64,000 nucleotides of DNA from Cellulophaga sp. F20128. GTDB lineage: Bacteria; Bacteroidota; Bacteroidia; Flavobacteriales; Flavobacteriaceae. Position 1 is the stretch's first letter, and the number at the start of each line of letters is the position of its first letter. Shown piece after piece: positions 6,929 through 14,751 of this stretch. The DNA is taken from contig NZ_JALKBA010000019.1 of NCBI RefSeq assembly GCF_023015805.1, positions 1 through 64,000 on the forward strand, given 5' to 3'. Position numbers and translations under genes: made by a program. Under the pieces are notes generated by a model. The model did not search any database. It saw nothing but the letters and a program-made list of their open reading frames with translations, and was not told the origin of the DNA.

Positions 6929-7405
6929 ATGAATGTAGAAAAAATTATAAAGGTTAAAAAACCACTGCCCGTAGAGACAAAAACTATTCTTCATTTACTA
7001 TTGGTAAATCAAAGAATATCAGAATTTACAGCGGAAGCTTTAAAACCTTTTGATGTTTCAACACAACAATTTAACGTATTGCGAATTTTAAAAGGTCAAA
7101 ACGAGAAGGCAGCAAACCTAAGTACACTTAACGAAAGAATGGTAAGTAAAATGAGTAACACCACTCGATTAGTGGATAAGTTAATTTTAAAAAAATTGGT
7201 AAAACGAACCGTTTGTGAGTCCAATAGGAGAAAAATAGAAATATTTATCACAAAAAAAGGCAAGGAAGAGCTTAAGAAAATGAGTGAGGTAATTTTAAAA
7301 ACCGAAAAAAAATTACTACAAAACATTTCCACTAGTGAAATGAATGAATTAAACGAATTATTAAATAGGTTAAACACAAACAATTCAGAAGAACAAAAAT
7401 TATGA
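6929..7405 (+). CDS. MarR family transcriptional regulator
   Basis: A 158-residue winged-helix regulator. The chosen start is the ATG at 6929 (MNVEKIIKV), just after the promoter; a longer frame opening upstream would run through the promoter and the rhodanese gene. Characteristic parts are QQFNVLRILKGQNEKAANLSTLNERM (helix-turn-helix region), the recognition stretch MVSKMSNTTRLVDKL, and the wing VKRTVCESNRRKIEIFITKKG. A C-terminal dimerisation helix follows. Its stop overlaps the start of yceI by four bases (ATGA), so the two are translationally coupled, and the likely target is this same operon. Confidence 0.92.
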   Translation: MNVEKIIKVKKPLPVETKTILHLLLVNQRISEFTAEALKPFDVSTQQFNVLRILKGQNEKAANLSTLNERMVSKMSNTTRLVDKLILKKLVKRTVCESNRRKIEIFITKKGKEELKKMSEVILKTEKKLLQNISTSEMNELNELLNRLNTNNSEEQKL

Positions 7406-7962
7406 AAAAACTATCAGTAAGCATTTTTGCATTAGTTATGGCATTAGGATCTATAACAGCACAAGAGAAAAAAGTAAATACAGAAGCTAGTTCCATTGAA
7501 TGGAAGGGCTATAAAGTAACAGGTTCGCATACAGGAACCTTAGCCATTAAAGAAGGGGCTTTAGTTTTTAATAACGACAAATTAAGCGGTGGAGAGTTCG
7601 TTGTAGATATGACAACATTGACTGTTACAGACTTGGAAGGTGGAATGAAAGCAAAATTGGAAGGCCACTTAAAGTCCGATGATTTCTTTAGCGTAGAAAA
7701 AAATACTAGTTCCAAATTGGTATTTACCATAGATTCAGCAGAAGGTAAGAATGCATATGCTGCAACTGGAAACCTTACTATAAAAGGGATCACCAAACCT
7801 GTATCTTTTGTAATTTCCGTATATGGCAGTAAAGCTACAGCCAGTTTAAAAATAGACAGAACAGACTATGACATACAGTACAGATCTGGTAGTTTCATTG
7901 AAAACTTAGGAGACAAGGCTATTTACGATGATTTTGATTTAGTAGTGGATTTAGAATTTTAA
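7402..7962 (+). CDS. YceI family periplasmic lipid-binding protein
   Basis: A 186-residue secreted protein with a signal peptide (MKKLSVSIFALVMALGSITAQ, cleavage after about residue 21). The mature part fits the YceI lipocalin-like barrel: SIEWKGYKVTGSHTGTLAIKEG, GGEFVVDMTTLTVTD, then LTIKGITKPVSFVISV. Family members bind isoprenoid-like lipids in the periplasm; the ligand here is unknown. It overlaps marR by four bases and is followed by a strong terminator at 7981-8008, so the operon is marR-yceI only. Confidence 0.93.
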   Translation: MKKLSVSIFALVMALGSITAQEKKVNTEASSIEWKGYKVTGSHTGTLAIKEGALVFNNDKLSGGEFVVDMTTLTVTDLEGGMKAKLEGHLKSDDFFSVEKNTSSKLVFTIDSAEGKNAYAATGNLTIKGITKPVSFVISVYGSKATASLKIDRTDYDIQYRSGSFIENLGDKAIYDDFDLVVDLEF

Positions 7963-7980
7963 AAAACAAAACAATGTTAC

Positions 7981-8008
7981 AAACCTCACTTTTGTGAGGT
8001 TTTTTATT
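7981..8008 (+). terminator. terminator of the marR-yceI operon
   Basis: Stem AAACCTCAC (7981-7989) with GTGAGGTTT (7994-8002), a four-base TTTT loop, followed by a T-rich run. It separates yceI from the trp control region. Confidence 0.85.
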
Positions 8009-8024
8009 TTTTATTGGATCACAG

Positions 8025-8055
8025 TTTGGTATTACAAAATTCATTATTATATTTG
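8025..8055 (+). promoter_or_regulatory. trp operon promoter (-33 TTTG, -7 TATATTTG)
   Basis: TTTG at 8025-8028 and TATATTTG at 8048-8055 are 19 bases apart, matching the Bacteroidota promoter pattern. The -7 element ends only five bases before the ATG of the leader peptide (8061), so the transcript should begin at or within a few bases of that ATG. This implies a leaderless message for the leader peptide. Confidence 0.75.
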
Positions 8056-8060
8056 ACCCA

Positions 8061-8114
8061 ATGAAAACAATAACAAACATATGGTGGTGGAACAACTTAC
8101 GTCAAACGTCGTGA
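8061..8114 (+). CDS. trpL: trp operon leader peptide
   Basis: A 17-residue reading frame, MKTITNIWWWNNLRQTS, with three consecutive Trp codons (8082-8090) and stop TGA at 8112-8114. It sits between the promoter and a Rho-independent terminator, directly upstream of trpE, the classic layout of a transcription attenuator in which ribosome stalling at Trp codons senses charged tRNA-Trp. There is no room for a Shine-Dalgarno sequence, so initiation is probably leaderless. Confidence 0.88.
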   Translation: MKTITNIWWWNNLRQTS

Positions 8115-8163
8115 GCTAAGCACCATTGTAATTAGTATACAAAAAAGGCTTGTCTATCACGAC
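8081..8163 (+). promoter_or_regulatory. trp attenuator: competing pause and antiterminator hairpins
   Basis: Three mutually exclusive pairings can be drawn. Segment 1 with 2: ATGGTG (8081-8086, over the Trp codons) pairs with CACCAT (8121-8126), and inside it CTTACG (8096-8101) pairs with CGTGAG (8110-8115, one G-U). Segment 2 with 3, the antiterminator: GTCGTGA (8108-8114) pairs with TCACGAC (8157-8163), aided by AAGC (8118-8121) with GCTT (8148-8151). Segment 3 with 4 is the terminator. A ribosome stalled on the Trp codons blocks segment 1 and frees segment 2 for the antiterminator; one that reaches the stop codon covers segment 2 and allows termination. Confidence 0.75.
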
Positions 8164-8176
8164 AAGCCTTTTTTTT
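8141..8176 (+). terminator. trp attenuator terminator
   Basis: A 14-bp perfect stem, AAAAAAGGCTTGTC (8141-8154) with GACAAGCCTTTTTT (8161-8174), loop TATCAC, and a run of eight T ending at 8176. It lies 27 bases before the trpE start, so it must be bypassed for operon expression. Confidence 0.92.
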
Positions 8177-8202
8177 ATACCATCTAATTAACCAAGATTA
8201 CA

Positions 8203-9600
8203 ATGAAATACAATTTAACATCACATCATAAAAAAATACTTGCAGATACCATTACCCCCGTAAGTGTCTATTTAAAAATAAGGGATCGGTTTCCGAATAG
8301 CATTTTATTAGAGAGTAGTGATTACCATGCAAATGACAATAGTTTTTCATATATCTGCTGTAATCCTATTGCATCTATAAAAATAGAAAATGAAATTATT
8401 ATTGAGAATTACCCAGATGGCACCTCATCAAAAACAAATATAGTAGCTACTACAGATGTTGCAGGTGTTTTACATGATTTTAGCAAAAAATTTAGCTCGT
8501 CTACCTCTGATTTTAAGTTTATAGACAATGGCCTTTTTGGTTATATGGCTTATGATGCAGTACGTTATTTTGAAGATATACAACTCTCTCGGAAAGACAA
8601 TTCTATTACCATACCAGACATGTATTATGCGGTATATCAAAATATAATTGCTATTAATCATTTTAACAACGAAGCTTATATTTTTGCAAATTGTTACGAA
8701 ACTGAAAGTAATATAGCAGACATAGAACAAATATTACAAGTTAGGAACTTTGCCTCCTATAATTTTTCCAAAACCGACGAAGCTACTTCTAATTTAACAG
8801 ATGCCGACTTTTTAGATCAAGTAGACTTAGCGAAAAAACACTGTCAACGTGGTGATGTTTTTCAACTTGTTCTCTCTAGAAGATTTTCTCAAAAATTTAA
8901 AGGAGATGAATTTAATGTATATCGCGCCCTTCGTTCTGTAAACCCATCCCCATACCTATTCTATTTTGATTATGGCGATTTTAAAATATTTGGAAGCTCT
9001 CCAGAAGCACAAATCATTGTAAAAGAAGGAAAAGCGGAAATTCACCCCATTGCAGGTACTTTTAAACGAACTGGTAATGATGAACAAGATGCAATTTTAG
9101 CAAAACAGCTAACAGAAGATGACAAGGAAAATAGCGAACATGTAATGTTGGTTGACTTAGCACGAAATGATTTAAGCAGAAATGGGAACGTAGTTACCGT
9201 AGAAAACTATAGAGAAGTTCAGTTTTTCTCCCACGTTATCCATTTGGTTTCTAAGGTTACAGGGCAAATGAAAAACAACAGCACTACCATGAAAGTTGTA
9301 GCAGACACCTTCCCAGCTGGCACTTTAAGTGGCGCTCCAAAGCACATGGCCATGCAACTTATAGAGAAATACGAAAAAACAAGCAGGGGTTACTATGGAG
9401 GAGCAATTGGGTTTATGGACTTTAAAGGCAACTTTAACCACGCAATAATGATTCGGACCTTTTTAAGTAAAAATCACGAATTACACTACCAAGCTGGAGC
9501 CGGCTTAGTCGCAGCATCTAACCCAGCAGACGAATTACAAGAAACCTACAATAAATTAGGGGCATTAACGAAAGCTTTAGAAATAGCAGAGAACATTTAA
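8203..9600 (+). CDS. trpE: anthranilate synthase component I
   Basis: A 465-residue chorismate-utilising enzyme that makes anthranilate from chorismate with ammonia supplied by TrpG. The N-terminal LLES at 35-38 matches the tryptophan feedback-binding motif. The catalytic domain shows GDVFQLVLSRRF, FGSSPEAQI, HPIAGTFKRTG, MLVDLARNDLSR and FPAGTLSGAPKHMAM in order, all typical. The start ATG at 8203 lies just after the attenuator terminator. It is the first gene of the trp operon and is followed by trpG after three bases. Confidence 0.98.
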   Translation: MKYNLTSHHKKILADTITPVSVYLKIRDRFPNSILLESSDYHANDNSFSYICCNPIASIKIENEIIIENYPDGTSSKTNIVATTDVAGVLHDFSKKFSSSTSDFKFIDNGLFGYMAYDAVRYFEDIQLSRKDNSITIPDMYYAVYQNIIAINHFNNEAYIFANCYETESNIADIEQILQVRNFASYNFSKTDEATSNLTDADFLDQVDLAKKHCQRGDVFQLVLSRRFSQKFKGDEFNVYRALRSVNPSPYLFYFDYGDFKIFGSSPEAQIIVKEGKAEIHPIAGTFKRTGNDEQDAILAKQLTEDDKENSEHVMLVDLARNDLSRNGNVVTVENYREVQFFSHVIHLVSKVTGQMKNNSTTMKVVADTFPAGTLSGAPKHMAMQLIEKYEKTSRGYYGGAIGFMDFKGNFNHAIMIRTFLSKNHELHYQAGAGLVAASNPADELQETYNKLGALTKALEIAENI

Positions 9601-9603
9601 AAG

Positions 9604-10167
9604 ATGAAAAAAATACTAGTTATAGATAATTACGACAGCTTTACGTACAACCTAGTTCACTATTTAGAAGATTTAGATTGTAGTGTTACTGTAAAACGAA
9701 ATGATCAACTAACCCTAGACGAAGTAGATTCTTTTGACAAAATAGTACTTTCTCCAGGACCAGGAATCCCAGATGAAGCCGGTTTATTAAAAGAAATTAT
9801 TGCAAGGTATGCTCCAACAAAAACCATATTAGGGGTTTGTTTGGGACAACAAGCCATAGGTGAGGTTTTTGGAGGCACACTTATCAATTTAGAACAAGTA
9901 TACCATGGCATTGCAACAAAAATTAAAGTGATTAAGGAGGATATTTTGTTTAAAGGGCTGCCCAAAGAGATTGAAGTAGGAAGATACCACTCCTGGGTTG
10001 TTAATCCCAATTTACCCGAAGTCCTAGAAGCAACCTCCGTTGATGAAAATGGACAAATAATGTCGTTACGCCATAAAATATATGATGTAAATGCCGTGCA
10101 ATTTCATCCCGAATCTGTGTTAACCCCAGACGGAAAACAAATGCTTAAAAATTGGGTGAATAAGTAA
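9604..10167 (+). CDS. trpG: anthranilate synthase component II (glutamine amidotransferase)
   Basis: A 187-residue class I glutamine amidotransferase providing ammonia to TrpE. The nucleophile is Cys79 in GVCLGQQAIGE, and the rest of the triad is His168 and Glu170 in QFHPES. The N-terminal DNYDSFTYNLVHYLEDL and SPGPGIPDEAG blocks are standard. It is a stand-alone subunit, not fused to TrpD, and lies three bases after trpE. In some bacteria the same subunit also serves folate synthesis; no pab genes are near. Confidence 0.97.
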   Translation: MKKILVIDNYDSFTYNLVHYLEDLDCSVTVKRNDQLTLDEVDSFDKIVLSPGPGIPDEAGLLKEIIARYAPTKTILGVCLGQQAIGEVFGGTLINLEQVYHGIATKIKVIKEDILFKGLPKEIEVGRYHSWVVNPNLPEVLEATSVDENGQIMSLRHKIYDVNAVQFHPESVLTPDGKQMLKNWVNK

Positions 10168-10200
10168 ACCTGAATCCTGATATCAAACACTTAAAAGAAA

Positions 10201-11193
10201 ATGAAGACAATACTAAATAGACTAATTAATCACGATATTCTTGAGAAAGAAGACGCCAAACAGGTTTTGGTTAATATTGCCAAAGGCGATTACAATACCA
10301 GCCAGATTGCCGCTTTTTTAACAGTTTATATGATGCGTAGTGTAACCATTGAAGAGTTAGAAGGGTTTAGAGACGCATTACTAGAGCTTTGCCTGGTTGT
10401 AGACTTATCTGCTTACAACCCCATTGATCTATGCGGTACTGGCGGTGATGGCAAGGACACCTTTAATATTTCTACCCTAGCATCTTTTGTAACGGCAGGT
10501 GCTGGCATTAAAGTTACCAAACACGGAAACTATGGAGTTTCAAGTAAATGTGGCAGCAGTAATGTTATGGAGCATTTAGGAATCAAATTTAGTAACGATG
10601 CTGGTTTTTTAGAAAAAACTTTAAACGAAGCTGGTATTTGTGTTTTACATGCACCCTTTTTTCACCCAGCTATGAAAAATGTGGCCCCTATACGCAGAGA
10701 GTTGGGTGTTAAGACCTTTTTTAATATGTTAGGTCCTATGGTGAACCCCGCTTTTCCAAAAAACCAAATGGTGGGCGTCTTCAATTTAGAACTTGCTAGG
10801 ATGTACGGGTATTTATATCAGAATACAGATAAAAATTACACCGTATTGCATGCCTTGGACGGCTATGATGAAATTTCATTAACGGGAAACACAAAAACCA
10901 TATCACGCCTATCAGAAGGAATGCTAACACCCGCAGATTTTGGAGTGAATCAAATTAAACAATCGGATATTGTTGGTGGTGAGAGCATTGAAGATTCTGC
11001 TCAAATATTCTTAAATATTTTAGGTGGGAAGGGAACAGCTCCTCAAAACAACGTTGTTTGTGCCAACGCAGGTATAGCCATTGCAACCGTAGAAAATTGC
11101 AGTCCAAAAGAAGGGTTTGAAAAAGCGAAAGAATCTTTATTGAGTGGTAAAGGACTCGTAGCGCTACAAAAATTACAAAAGCTTAGTGTATAG
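10201..11193 (+). CDS. trpD: anthranilate phosphoribosyltransferase
   Basis: A 330-residue enzyme transferring the phosphoribosyl group of PRPP to anthranilate. The phosphate-binding loop CGTGGDGKDTFNIST begins at about 78, followed by VTKHGNYGVSSKCGSSNVMEHLG; the metal-binding DE pair appears in DGYDEIS. The length fits the family (about 335). It starts 33 bases after trpG and is directly joined to trpC, whose ATG follows its stop without a gap. Confidence 0.97.
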   Translation: MKTILNRLINHDILEKEDAKQVLVNIAKGDYNTSQIAAFLTVYMMRSVTIEELEGFRDALLELCLVVDLSAYNPIDLCGTGGDGKDTFNISTLASFVTAGAGIKVTKHGNYGVSSKCGSSNVMEHLGIKFSNDAGFLEKTLNEAGICVLHAPFFHPAMKNVAPIRRELGVKTFFNMLGPMVNPAFPKNQMVGVFNLELARMYGYLYQNTDKNYTVLHALDGYDEISLTGNTKTISRLSEGMLTPADFGVNQIKQSDIVGGESIEDSAQIFLNILGGKGTAPQNNVVCANAGIAIATVENCSPKEGFEKAKESLLSGKGLVALQKLQKLSV

Positions 11194-11979
11194 ATGGATA
11201 TCTTAGAAAAAATAGTACGTGATAAACGCAAAGAAGTAGATTTAAGAAAATCTATTATCCCCATTTCTCAATTGGAAAATTCTGTTTTATGCAACAGAAA
11301 TAAAGTTTCATTGGCTCAAGCTTTAAAAAATAGTGCAACAGGAATTATTGCGGAACACAAAAGAAGATCCCCTTCTAAATCTATCATTAACAACAACCTA
11401 AACGTACAAGATGTTGCTACCGGCTACGAAAGTGCCGGTGTTTGTGGCATGTCTGTTTTAACGGATGGCAAATATTTTGGGGGATCCTTAGACGATTTGT
11501 TAGTAACCAGAGCTGCAGTACAACTTCCCCTTTTGCGCAAAGAGTTTGTCATTGATGAATACCAAATCCTTGAAGCAAAGGCCTATGGTGCAGATGTGAT
11601 CCTTTTAATTGCCGCAATACTTACACGGAACGAAATCAAAAAGTTGTCAGAGTTTGCAAAAAAATTGGACTTAGATGTTTTGTTAGAAGTACACAATGAA
11701 GAGGAATTGCATAAATCTGTAATGCCTAGTTTAGATATGTTGGGTGTAAACAACAGAAATTTAAAGACTTTTTCTGTTAGCTTAGAAACTAGCAAGTCCT
11801 TGGCTTCTTTAATTCCCAATGATTTTGTAAAAGTGTCTGAAAGTGGAATTAGCAGTATTGAAGCAATAAAAGAATTACAACCCTATGGATACCTTGGGTT
11901 TCTTATAGGTGAAAATTTCATGAAGACAGAAAATCCCGGTAAAAGCGCTACTAATTTTATAAAATCTTTAGTCTCATGA
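11194..11979 (+). CDS. trpC: indole-3-glycerol phosphate synthase
   Basis: A 261-residue TIM barrel closing the indole ring of CdRP. Hallmarks are GIIAEHKRRSPSKS (catalytic Lys), PLLRKEFVIDEYQ, GADVILLIAAIL, VLLEVHNEEEL, LGVNNRNLKTF and KVSESGI. It is separate from TrpF, unlike the fused enterobacterial enzyme. Its end overlaps the trpF start by four bases (ATGA), implying coupled translation. Confidence 0.97.
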   Translation: MDILEKIVRDKRKEVDLRKSIIPISQLENSVLCNRNKVSLAQALKNSATGIIAEHKRRSPSKSIINNNLNVQDVATGYESAGVCGMSVLTDGKYFGGSLDDLLVTRAAVQLPLLRKEFVIDEYQILEAKAYGADVILLIAAILTRNEIKKLSEFAKKLDLDVLLEVHNEEELHKSVMPSLDMLGVNNRNLKTFSVSLETSKSLASLIPNDFVKVSESGISSIEAIKELQPYGYLGFLIGENFMKTENPGKSATNFIKSLVS

Positions 11980-12617
11980 AGCTAAAAGTTTGTGGTATGA
12001 CGTCTACAGATAATATGGAAGCAGTGGCAACATTGCAACCTGATTATTTGGGCTTTATTTTCTGGGAACCATCTACTAGGTACTTTAAAGGAAAAATGGG
12101 AAACATCCCCAATACTATAAAAAAAGTTGGGGTTTTTGTAGATGCCTCCTTGGATCATGTCATTGAAAAAATTAACGAACATAATTTGGCTGCGGTACAA
12201 CTGCATGGAAAAGAATCTCCTGAATTCTGTATGGGAATTCGCAACTCTAGTCTGGGACTGCAAGGGGCACAACCTAAAATCATAAAGGTGTTTTCTATAA
12301 AAGATACTTTTGACTTTAGTGTTTTAAAAGCATATGAAAAGGTGTGTGATTACTTTTTATTTGACACCAAAGGGAAACTACCTGGTGGAAACGGATACAC
12401 TTTTAACTGGTCTGTTTTAGAAAATTACCCCGCTACCAAACCCTATTTTTTAAGTGGCGGCATTGGATTAAAGGATATCGATAAAATTAAAGATTTTTTA
12501 AAAACACCCGCATCAAAATACTGTGCAGTAATAGATGTTAACAGTGGTTTTGAAATTGAACCTGGCTTAAAAGATATTGAAAAACTAAAAGAATTTACAA
12601 CAGCACTGCGTACATAG
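11976..12617 (+). CDS. trpF: phosphoribosylanthranilate isomerase
   Basis: A 213-residue TIM barrel catalysing the Amadori rearrangement of PRA to CdRP. The catalytic Cys6 is in KVCGMTS, the catalytic Asp in FLFDTKGKLPGG, and the phosphate-binding LSGGIGLKDID follows. The start overlaps trpC by four bases, and trpB begins 32 bases after the stop. Confidence 0.97.
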   Translation: MKLKVCGMTSTDNMEAVATLQPDYLGFIFWEPSTRYFKGKMGNIPNTIKKVGVFVDASLDHVIEKINEHNLAAVQLHGKESPEFCMGIRNSSLGLQGAQPKIIKVFSIKDTFDFSVLKAYEKVCDYFLFDTKGKLPGGNGYTFNWSVLENYPATKPYFLSGGIGLKDIDKIKDFLKTPASKYCAVIDVNSGFEIEPGLKDIEKLKEFTTALRT

Positions 12618-12649
12618 TACGTAGTCATTGTTCTAGAAAATAACACAAT

Positions 12650-13831
12650 ATGAATTACAATGTAACAGAAAAAGGATATTACGGAACATATGGCGGTGCC
12701 TACATTCCCGAAATGTTATATCCAAACGTGGAGAATTTACGTCAGAACTATCTGAAAATAATGCAAGAACCATCTTTTAAAGAAGAGTTTGACCAGTTGT
12801 TAAAAGATTATGTTGGCAGACCTTCTCCCTTATATTTTGCTAAGCGATTGTCTGAAAAATACAACACAAAAGTGTATTTAAAAAGAGAAGATTTAAATCA
12901 TACTGGCGCCCATAAGGTAAACAATACCATTGGTCAGATTTTAATGGCAAAAAAACTCGGTAAAAACCGAATCATTGCCGAAACTGGCGCTGGCCAGCAC
13001 GGGGTAGCAACGGCTACTGTTTGTGCGCTTATGGGAATGGATTGCATTGTATATATGGGTGAAATAGATATTGCTCGTCAGGCACCAAACGTTGCCCGTA
13101 TGAAAATGTTAGGTGCAGAGGTTAGACCAGCTACATCCGGAAGTAAAACATTAAAAGATGCTACCAACGAGGCAATTCGCGATTGGATTAACAACCCAGT
13201 AGACACCCATTATATTATTGGTTCTGCTATTGGTCCACATCCCTACCCCGATATGGTAACTCGTTTTCAGTCTATCATTTCTGAAGAAATAAAATGGCAA
13301 TTAAAAGAAAAAGAAGGGCGTGAAAACCCAGACTATGTGGTTGCTTGTATTGGAGGTGGCAGTAATGCCGCCGGCACCTACTATCACTTTTTACACGAAG
13401 AAGAAGTTGGTATTATTGCCGTTGAAGCTGCAGGAAAAGGCATACATTCTGGAGAAAGCGCTGCCACATCTGCCTTGGGAAAAGAGGGGATAATTCACGG
13501 ATGTAGAACCTTATTAATGCAAACCGAAGACGGACAAATAACGGAGCCTTATTCTATTTCAGCAGGACTAGATTACCCTGGTGTTGGCCCCTTGCATTCG
13601 CATTTATACACCTCTGGTCGCGGAGAGTTTTATTCTGCCACAGATGATGAAGCCATGACATCTGGCTTGGAATTAACCCAACTAGAAGGTATTATCCCTG
13701 CTATTGAAAGCAGCCATGCCTTAGCTATTTTTAAGCATAAAACTTTTAAACCTGAAGATGTGGTTGTTATTAGTTTGTCTGGTCGGGGCGATAAAGATTT
13801 AGACAATTATATAAAATATTTTAACCTTTAA
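12650..13831 (+). CDS. trpB: tryptophan synthase beta subunit
   Basis: A 393-residue PLP enzyme joining indole and serine. The PLP lysine is Lys89 in HTGAHKVNN; the phosphate-binding loop is CIGGGSNAAG near 224-233; GAEVRPATSGSKTLKDATNEA and the C-terminal LSGRGDKDL are characteristic of the TrpB1 type that pairs with TrpA. It starts 32 bases after trpF. A 155-base gap containing a 32-codon frame separates it from trpA. Confidence 0.98.
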   Translation: MNYNVTEKGYYGTYGGAYIPEMLYPNVENLRQNYLKIMQEPSFKEEFDQLLKDYVGRPSPLYFAKRLSEKYNTKVYLKREDLNHTGAHKVNNTIGQILMAKKLGKNRIIAETGAGQHGVATATVCALMGMDCIVYMGEIDIARQAPNVARMKMLGAEVRPATSGSKTLKDATNEAIRDWINNPVDTHYIIGSAIGPHPYPDMVTRFQSIISEEIKWQLKEKEGRENPDYVVACIGGGSNAAGTYYHFLHEEEVGIIAVEAAGKGIHSGESAATSALGKEGIIHGCRTLLMQTEDGQITEPYSISAGLDYPGVGPLHSHLYTSGRGEFYSATDDEAMTSGLELTQLEGIIPAIESSHALAIFKHKTFKPEDVVVISLSGRGDKDLDNYIKYFNL

Positions 13832-13875
13832 AGTATCGTTATAAATGCTAAGTAGTAAGGATTACCATCAAATCA

Positions 13876-13974
13876 ATGCAGAAAATTAAAGAACGAATTT
13901 GCACATATGTTGATTTTGATAGACTTGCCAGTTTATTACGAGAAGTAAGTCAAGTGTGCAATCCTGTTCAATGA
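13876..13974 (+). CDS. possible 32-residue microprotein between trpB and trpA
   Basis: An ATG-to-TGA frame in the trpB-trpA gap encodes MQKIKERICT...VCNPVQ, 32 residues with two cysteines and no membrane segment. I do not recognise it. It may be a real operon small gene, a decayed remnant, or chance. The last bases contain ATGA at 13971-13974, and the trpA ATG follows 12 bases after its stop, so ribosomes finishing this frame could re-initiate at trpA. Confidence 0.3.
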   Translation: MQKIKERICTYVDFDRLASLLREVSQVCNPVQ

Positions 13975-13986
13975 AAGAAATTAAAT

Positions 13987-14751
13987 ATGAAAAATAGAAT
14001 CCATTCTAAAATGCAAGAAGACAAAAAACTTCTTTCCATATATTTTACAGCCGGTTACCCAGCACTGAACAATACCGTTCAAATACTAGAAGATCTAGAA
14101 AAAAACGGGGTAGATATGGTAGAAATTGGATTGCCCTTTAGCGATCCTTTGGCAGACGGCCCCACCATACAAGCAAGCTCGTCAAAAGCCTTGAAAAACG
14201 GCATGACAACTGCAGTGCTCTTTGATCAATTAAAAGACATCCGCAAGACGGTTTCCATACCCCTTATACTTATGGGCTATTTTAACCCAATGATGCAATA
14301 TGGTGTGGAGGCATTTTGTAAGAAATGTCAAGAAATTGGAATAGACGGGTTAATTATACCCGATTTACCTGTAGCTGTGTACCACGAAGAATACCAGCCT
14401 ATTTTTGAGAAATACGGACTCATTAATGTGTTTTTAATCACCCCTCAAACCGATGACGAGCGAATCAGATACATTGATAGTGTTTCCAATGGCTTCATTT
14501 ATATGGTGAGTTCTGCAAGCGTAACGGGATCACAATCTGGTTTTGGAAACACCCAACAAGATTACTTTAAACGCATTGCAGCAATGCAATTAAAAAACCC
14601 GCAGATTGTAGGGTTTGGAATTAGCAACTCAGAAACTTTTACCCAAGCTACTACAGATGCTAAGGGTGCCATAATTGGTTCTGCTTTTATAAAACACCTC
14701 ACAGCTAATGGCGTAGCTGCTATTGGCGATTTTGTACAACATATTCGCTAA
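13987..14751 (+). CDS. trpA: tryptophan synthase alpha subunit
   Basis: A 254-residue TIM barrel that cleaves indole-3-glycerol phosphate to indole. The catalytic pair Glu46 (VEIGLPFSD) and Asp57 (PLADGPTIQ) is intact, as are LPVAVYHEE and YMVSSASVTGSQSG. It is the last gene of the trp operon and is followed within seven bases by a strong terminator shared with the opposing ABC-F gene. Confidence 0.98.
   Translation: MKNRIHSKMQEDKKLLSIYFTAGYPALNNTVQILEDLEKNGVDMVEIGLPFSDPLADGPTIQASSSKALKNGMTTAVLFDQLKDIRKTVSIPLILMGYFNPMMQYGVEAFCKKCQEIGIDGLIIPDLPVAVYHEEYQPIFEKYGLINVFLITPQTDDERIRYIDSVSNGFIYMVSSASVTGSQSGFGNTQQDYFKRIAAMQLKNPQIVGFGISNSETFTQATTDAKGAIIGSAFIKHLTANGVAAIGDFVQHIR

Follow-up and report, generated by a model that had tools for sequence, protein, structure and literature searches.

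The trp attenuator of Escherichia coli (trpL) combines a short leader in which Trp codons stand in tandem, RNA structures that exclude one another and an intrinsic terminator ahead of trpE, and a comparative survey of attenuation was reportedly made by Lopatovskaya in 2010. For the Bacteroidetes, the Bacteroid-trp motif (Rfam RF01692) was published in 2010 (PMC2864571, in the available part of that report), and the transcriptome of Flavobacterium psychrophilum gave, in the available part of its description, strong clues of leader-peptide attenuation before amino-acid operons (PMC9723704). Leaders that begin with the start codon have been described in other phyla, according to the available parts of two reports: the trpL RNA of Sinorhizobium meliloti begins with the ATG of trpL (PMC7298713), and the LeuL1, LeuL2, metL and thrL leader peptides of Streptomyces lividans are transcribed leaderless (PMC8079986).

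We analysed a 64-kb window (the whole stretch of DNA, 64,000 nucleotides) and consider it highly probable that the element in front of its trp operon is a near-leaderless member of the Bacteroid-trp family that attenuates transcription through ribosome stalling. It resembles trpL of E. coli in the tandem-Trp leader, the exclusive structures and the terminator before trpE, whereas it differs in having another promoter type, no Shine-Dalgarno sequence, a predicted near-leaderless start and no TrpR match in the genome, and in the location of the covarying core of the putative antiterminator, which is the loop and upper 3' arm of the terminator. With RF01692 it shares a covariance-model score above gathering, the Trp codons, the place before trp genes and the phylum; the RF01692 consensus structure includes the 1:2 hairpin and extends as far as the terminator's 5' arm, which is unpaired. 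The present analysis adds the antiterminator and the box-to-ATG spacing. The S. meliloti system is likewise a trp attenuator with an ATG-start RNA, although it belongs to the Alphaproteobacteria and, in the part of the report available, attenuation there concerns trpE(G) alone among three trp operons. The S. lividans leaders are likewise leaderless but belong to the Actinobacteria and to other amino acids, and the available part of that report gives no clear intrinsic terminator for LeuL1, metL and thrL. The novelty suggested by the first-pass annotation must therefore be narrowed, since the motif has been on record since 2010 and attenuators with leaderless leaders have been described outside the phylum; what stands is the predicted lineage-wide near-leaderless form. 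The attenuator itself is of an already-known kind, and our additions are this predicted form and the proposed antiterminator. In the literature searched (listings and openly accessible passages), neither a leaderless trp attenuator of Bacteroidetes nor the antiterminator proposed here was described.

The predicted attenuator and its operon

All parts of the attenuator lie on the + strand, between positions 8025 and 8176 of the window. A Bacteroidetes promoter can be read from the sequence, its -33 element TTTG (8025-8028) located 19 bases 5' of its -7 element TATATTTG (8048-8055), and the leader ORF (MKTITNIWWWNNLRQTS; 8061-8114) has its ATG at 8061, comprises 17 codons followed by TGA (8112-8114) and contains three tandem TGG codons for Trp (8082-8090). 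The intrinsic terminator (8141-8176) consists of a 14-bp stem (8141-8154/8161-8174), a TATCAC loop (8155-8160) and a T-run to 8176. It is followed by trpE (8203-9600), for which the top model was TIGR00564 with 438.5 bits, under its curated cut-off of 517.7, and by trpG, trpD, trpC, trpF, trpB and trpA (9604-14751), of which G, D, C, B and A exceeded their curated cut-offs and F was assigned by its best models, which scored below theirs; the gene order downstream of the attenuator is trpEGDCFBA. The trpB-trpA gap (13832-13986, 155 bases) is the longest within the operon. The upstream gene is YceI-like, weakly (NF002994, 39.9 bits vs a cut-off of 232), and 3' of it lies an intrinsic-terminator-like hairpin (7981-8002, -12.7 kcal/mol) with a 9-bp stem and a T-run behind it, an arrangement suggestive of a separate promoter for the leader.

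The RF01692 covariance model matched 8041-8154 with 75.5 bits (gathering threshold, 49), and no other Rfam family reached gathering level anywhere in the 64-kb window. The features of the family were found as well, namely WWW in the 17-codon ORF before trpE and a hairpin tying the Trp codons to a downstream segment; the attenuator thus belongs to a known kind, RF01692. Within the window's own taxonomic family, RF01692 was present in 119 of the 149 genomes sampled (103 over the cut-off), and across the phylum in 30 of 296 genomes, 28 of which, the window's own genome included, came from that same family. It was also present in 18 of 80 genomes in the family of genome G419, a neighbouring family of the same order (10 over the cut-off), and in 15 of 119 genomes in the order of genome G376 (8 over the cut-off), with matches in these two groups taken at E up to 0.01; larger searches filter more strictly and lose weak matches. 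The nearest named relatives by TrpE, among the best 80 of 565 matches, were three Cellulophaga with 87-89% identity.

Across 246 leaders (window included), the region 9-36 bases 5' of the Trp codons held 256 in-frame and 27 out-of-frame ATGs, and an in-frame ATG was located 21-30 nt ahead of the first Trp codon in 240 of them, the remaining six having TTG or GTG nearby. The start codons counted in 208 leaders were 108 ATG and 1 GTG in the short form, 82 ATG and 3 TTG in the leadered form, and 14 ATG in the intermediate one; loci L236 and L247, both leadered and starting with GTG, fall outside this count.

Competing folds and covariation of the pairings

The segment 8061-8180 folded with -40.8 kcal/mol compared with -17.8 ± 3.0 kcal/mol for shuffled sequences (z -7.6; 0 of 200 shuffles as good). 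In the predicted fold without a ribosome, the anti-antiterminator (1:2 hairpin, 8080-8130) pairs the Trp-codon stretch 8080-8089 with 8121-8130 and carries a tip hairpin (8096-8101:8110-8115), with the terminator left free to form. When a ribosome was placed on the Trp codons and the RNA was extended to 8163, the fold was an antiterminator of -15.7 kcal/mol in all, in which the 5' strand GTCGTGA (8108-8114), overlapping the leader stop codon, pairs with 8157-8163 and is accompanied by extra helices at 8117-8121:8148-8152 and 8126-8130:8138-8142. With the ribosome at the stop codon and the RNA again ending at 8163, just -0.8 kcal/mol remained. In silico, the antiterminator and the terminator are mutually exclusive, 8108-8114 pairing either inside the 1:2 hairpin or with 8157-8163. 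Once the whole terminator was transcribed, it became the minimum-energy fold even with a stalled ribosome (-24.6 kcal/mol). Because the completed terminator is more stable even in the stalled state, antitermination would have to be kinetic, taking place during transcription.

The leaders of the relatives were folded as well. At least 4 loop-to-leader pairs were present in the stalled folds of 240 of the 246 leaders (window included), compared with 309 of 1230 shuffled-leader folds. Against the model, the loop was already paired with the leader in 130 of 246 truncated transcripts folded without a ribosome. These sets hold 246 of 247 loci, L101 having been excluded from the fold and covariation sets since the script found no terminator in it, and one further loop was too short for the analysis of a 7-base core, leaving 245. 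The antiterminator strand, as set by best pairing, begins 17 or 18 bases past the last Trp codon in 211 of the 245 scored leaders, and a strand at this distance falls outside a ribosome stalled on Trp. On these predictions, the antiterminator likely forms when the stop-codon segment 8108-8114 pairs with the terminator at its loop and upper 3' arm (8157-8163).

Evidence for this pairing was also sought in covariation. For 54 distinct terminator loop types, the pairing of each loop and 3' arm with its own leader averaged -9.09 kcal/mol vs -7.43 ± 0.21 kcal/mol for exchanged ones, and 0 of 10,000 permutations were as good; for the 7-base core (29 types), 1 of 20,000 was as good, and taken singly the own core ranked first among the 29, alone or in a tie, for just 5 of 28 non-consensus types. 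In the control with loop and arm reversed, 424 of 10,000 permutations reached the observed value, indicating a weak composition effect that is smaller than the true signal (0 of 10,000). The own fit also beat the exchanged fit, with 0 of 10,000 permutations as good in either case, for the post-Trp segment against the stop segment (82 types) and for the Trp stretch against its downstream partner (80 types). The permutations ignore relatedness, so these figures are not probabilities, and the weight rests on separate lineages with paired changes between the leader and the loop or upper 3' arm. Such changes were clear in L109 (GTCGCAA with TTGCGAC), in L225 (CCGTGAG with CTTACGG), in L232, L235 and L238, in which a single base pair takes the forms G-C, A-U and G-U, respectively, and in L236 and L247. 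Two mismatches inside the core, hence poor pairing, were found in L035, L055, L056, L094, L107, L136, L234 and L244.

Taken together, the promoter, the 17-codon WWW leader and the terminator before trpE named in the first-pass annotation were all confirmed in 8025-8176, and its reading of the element as attenuation logic gains support from the RF01692 membership, the presence in 119 of 149 genomes, the covarying pairings and the leaders in which the ATG is in frame with the Trp codons. The three alternative hairpins that it described are present and can now be specified as an anti-antiterminator involving the Trp codons, an antiterminator and a terminator, and these competing pairings do covary among the leaders of the relatives.

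Promoter, predicted start and box-to-ATG spacing

The -7 element is the sole TANNTTTG on the + strand in 7901-8203, no other TAHHTTTG box was present on that strand in 7401-8300, and the relatives have similar boxes. The end of the box is separated by 5 bases from the ATG at 8061. The sigma-A box of F. psychrophilum covers -12 to -5, according to the available part of the report (PMC9723704), and in F. johnsoniae there are 4 or 5 bases between the box and the start (PMC6847099). When these flavobacterial distances are applied to the 5-base spacing, transcription is predicted to start at A8060 or A8061, with a single leader base or no leader at all. Among the leaders with a spacing of 5 (n = 81), A directly preceded the ATG in 69 and C stood one base earlier in 67. 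By the CA initiator rule, such a CA fits a start that gives a 1-base leader. The trp leader mRNA is thus probably leaderless or nearly so, with the start predicted from spacing.

In the window, mechanical ORF calling gave 66 ORFs with 90 or more codons; 19 of them had a -7 box within 120 bases, and just 1 of these had it no more than 8 bases from the ATG. Genome-wide there were 9 TATATTTG-N5-ATG sites, the trp leader included, and 5 matches to a backward control pattern; of the other eight sites, seven begin short ORFs (18 codons or fewer) and the eighth an ORF of 70 codons, and no attenuator was seen by eye at any of them, in a check that stopped short of the sequence 3' of the 70-codon ORF. 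Leaderless mRNAs make up 5.5% of the mapped mRNAs in F. psychrophilum, in the part of the report available (PMC9723704), about 3.7% of 5' UTRs in published data for Bacteroides thetaiotaomicron are shorter than 10 nt, and 87% of the predicted leaders in F. johnsoniae are longer than 10 nt (PMC6847099). Because leaderless messages or short leaders are a minority in all three, the prior for a leaderless message is low.

We then compared the spacing across lineages. Of the 119 matches in the window's own family, 116 genomes were analysed (own included; G008, G009 and G145 were left out), and the spacing was 4-8 bases in 36 (exactly 5 in 22), 9-12 in 14 and at least 14, mostly 14-22, in 66. The 80 named loci with the closest TrpE are the best 80 of 565 matches and hence close relatives, not an independent sample; the WWW leader was present in 80 of 80, and the spacing was 4-8 in 78 and exactly 5 in 51 (eight read by eye). 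In the neighbouring family, 11 of 18 matches had a spacing of 5-6; in the order of G376, 0 of the 14 with an assigned box were short, the spacing being 18-31 with two boxes imperfect; and all 16 loci of the genus coded g112 had 16-20 bases. The spacing was set by eye for L019 (18), L082 (38) and L099 (41), in which the script had picked the wrong -7 box; L229 was left without a box, and the boxes of L011, L095, L131, L136, L199, L225 and L230 are imperfect.

A single-gene FastTree phylogeny of TrpE was built from 153 rows, 14 of 167 having been left out for want of a TrpE match, and several long branches in it were flagged. On this tree 10 changes account for the short form, no fewer than 6 of them forced by the starred branches, compared with 41.7 when the labels were shuffled; in the clade surrounding the window, 85 of 87 rows have short spacing. 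As judged from the predicted boxes, short spacing is a lineage variant, with mostly 14-22 bases in other lineages. The suggestion of the first-pass annotation that the leader mRNA is probably leaderless is accordingly strengthened as a prediction, by the 5-base spacing, the box-to-start distances published for two flavobacteria and the conservation of the spacing in the clade, and it would apply to a lineage variant. In L156 and L169, the remaining two of the 80 named loci and members of an otherwise short-spacing clade, the box-to-ATG distance is 28 and 30 bases.

Proposed switch and alternative readings

In the mechanism that we propose, RNA polymerase would start at about 8060-8061, so that the message opens with AUG or A-AUG, and a ribosome would load on the 5'-terminal AUG as it emerges. 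With ample Trp-tRNA, the ribosome would reach the stop codon and cover 8108-8114, allowing the terminator (8141-8176) to form and transcription to end. With scarce Trp-tRNA, it would stall on the Trp codons and cover the segment just 3' of them; 8108-8114 could then pair with the terminator loop and upper 3' arm, aided by pairs with the 5' arm, and the terminator would not be formed in time, resulting in the transcription of trpEGDCFBA. If no ribosome loads, the 1:2 hairpin would form and the terminator would win. Computation supplies the components of this scheme, its membership in RF01692, the spacing and the covarying pairings; the start site, ribosome loading, timing and Trp response are what we infer.

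Several other readings were weighed against this mechanism. It is hardly credible that the locus holds a mere terminator and a chance short ORF, with trpE under a protein (TrpR or TRAP) or another RNA sensor, given the RF01692 match, the in-frame leaders with tandem Trp codons in the relatives and the covarying alternative structures. A chance ORF with an unrelated terminator, or another Rfam element, was rejected because RF01692 is the sole gathering-level match, and control by TrpR or TRAP was rejected because the Trp repressor (PF01371) and TRAP (PF02081) had no match in the genome, which is listed as 99.98% complete; the PF01371 search was positive in E. coli and B. subtilis and the PF02081 search in B. 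subtilis. We also regard it as quite unlikely that the same attenuator is carried by an ordinary leadered message from an upstream or unrecognised promoter, which would make the 5-base spacing irrelevant. Leadered forms of RF01692 are indeed common, as in the 66 of 116 family genomes and the g112 loci described above, and leaderless mRNAs are the minority in the three Bacteroidetes studied; however, this reading has to accommodate the single TAHHTTTG box on the + strand of 7401-8300, the terminator-like hairpin at 7981-8002 and a spacing that has stayed within 4-8 bases in nearly all of the 80 named relatives, where a free spacing would be expected to drift.

A classical antiterminator, in which the leader pairs with the 5' arm of the terminator alone and the complementarity to the loop is a by-product of sequence conservation, is unlikely in our estimation, although at least 4 pairs between the leader and the 5' arm occur in 243 of 246 stalled folds. 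In L054, L234, L237 and L239, moreover, the leader TCAAAGTC is exactly complementary to the 5' arm GACTTTGA, and in this subgroup a predicted classical antiterminator replaces the loop-directed one. Against its general application, several lineages show joint changes of the leader with the loop or the upper 3' arm (L109, L225, L232/L235/L238, L236 and L247), and permuting the 5' arm yielded no signal (9440 of 10,000 permutations did as well), though the arm is nearly invariant and the test hence has little power.

The loop-directed attenuator with a near-leaderless message leads to a broader proposal, which we consider reasonably probable: that the message of the trp attenuator begins at the leader AUG in a whole branch of marine Flavobacteriaceae and, separately, in some of the neighbouring family, that initiation at the 5'-terminal AUG sets the timing between ribosome and polymerase, and that antitermination captures the terminator loop and upper 3' arm, not the 5' arm alone. 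An attenuator requires the first ribosome to load and then to track the polymerase closely; if the message is leaderless, loading would take place at a 5'-terminal AUG with neither Shine-Dalgarno pairing nor an upstream leader. Leaderless messages are a minority in the phylum, and the coexistence of leadered and putatively leaderless versions of one conserved switch may offer a natural comparison of two ways of ribosome loading. The proposed antiterminator supplies the exact bases for mutation.

The position of the attenuator relative to the genes was also recorded in the relatives. As judged by eye from the N-termini, it is followed by a TrpB-like ORF, not trpE, in the order of G376 and in some neighbouring-family genomes (L035, L217, L219-L222, L224, L227, L236, L243, L245 and L247). 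In 8 of the 80 named loci (L145, L178, L185, L188, L192, L193, L198 and L202), the leader ATG is located 490-578 bases 5' of trpE, compared with 125-217 bases elsewhere, and the stretch between the terminator and trpE in these loci (positions about 920-1500) reads by eye like a GIY-YIG endonuclease-type ORF, of 94 aa in L178.
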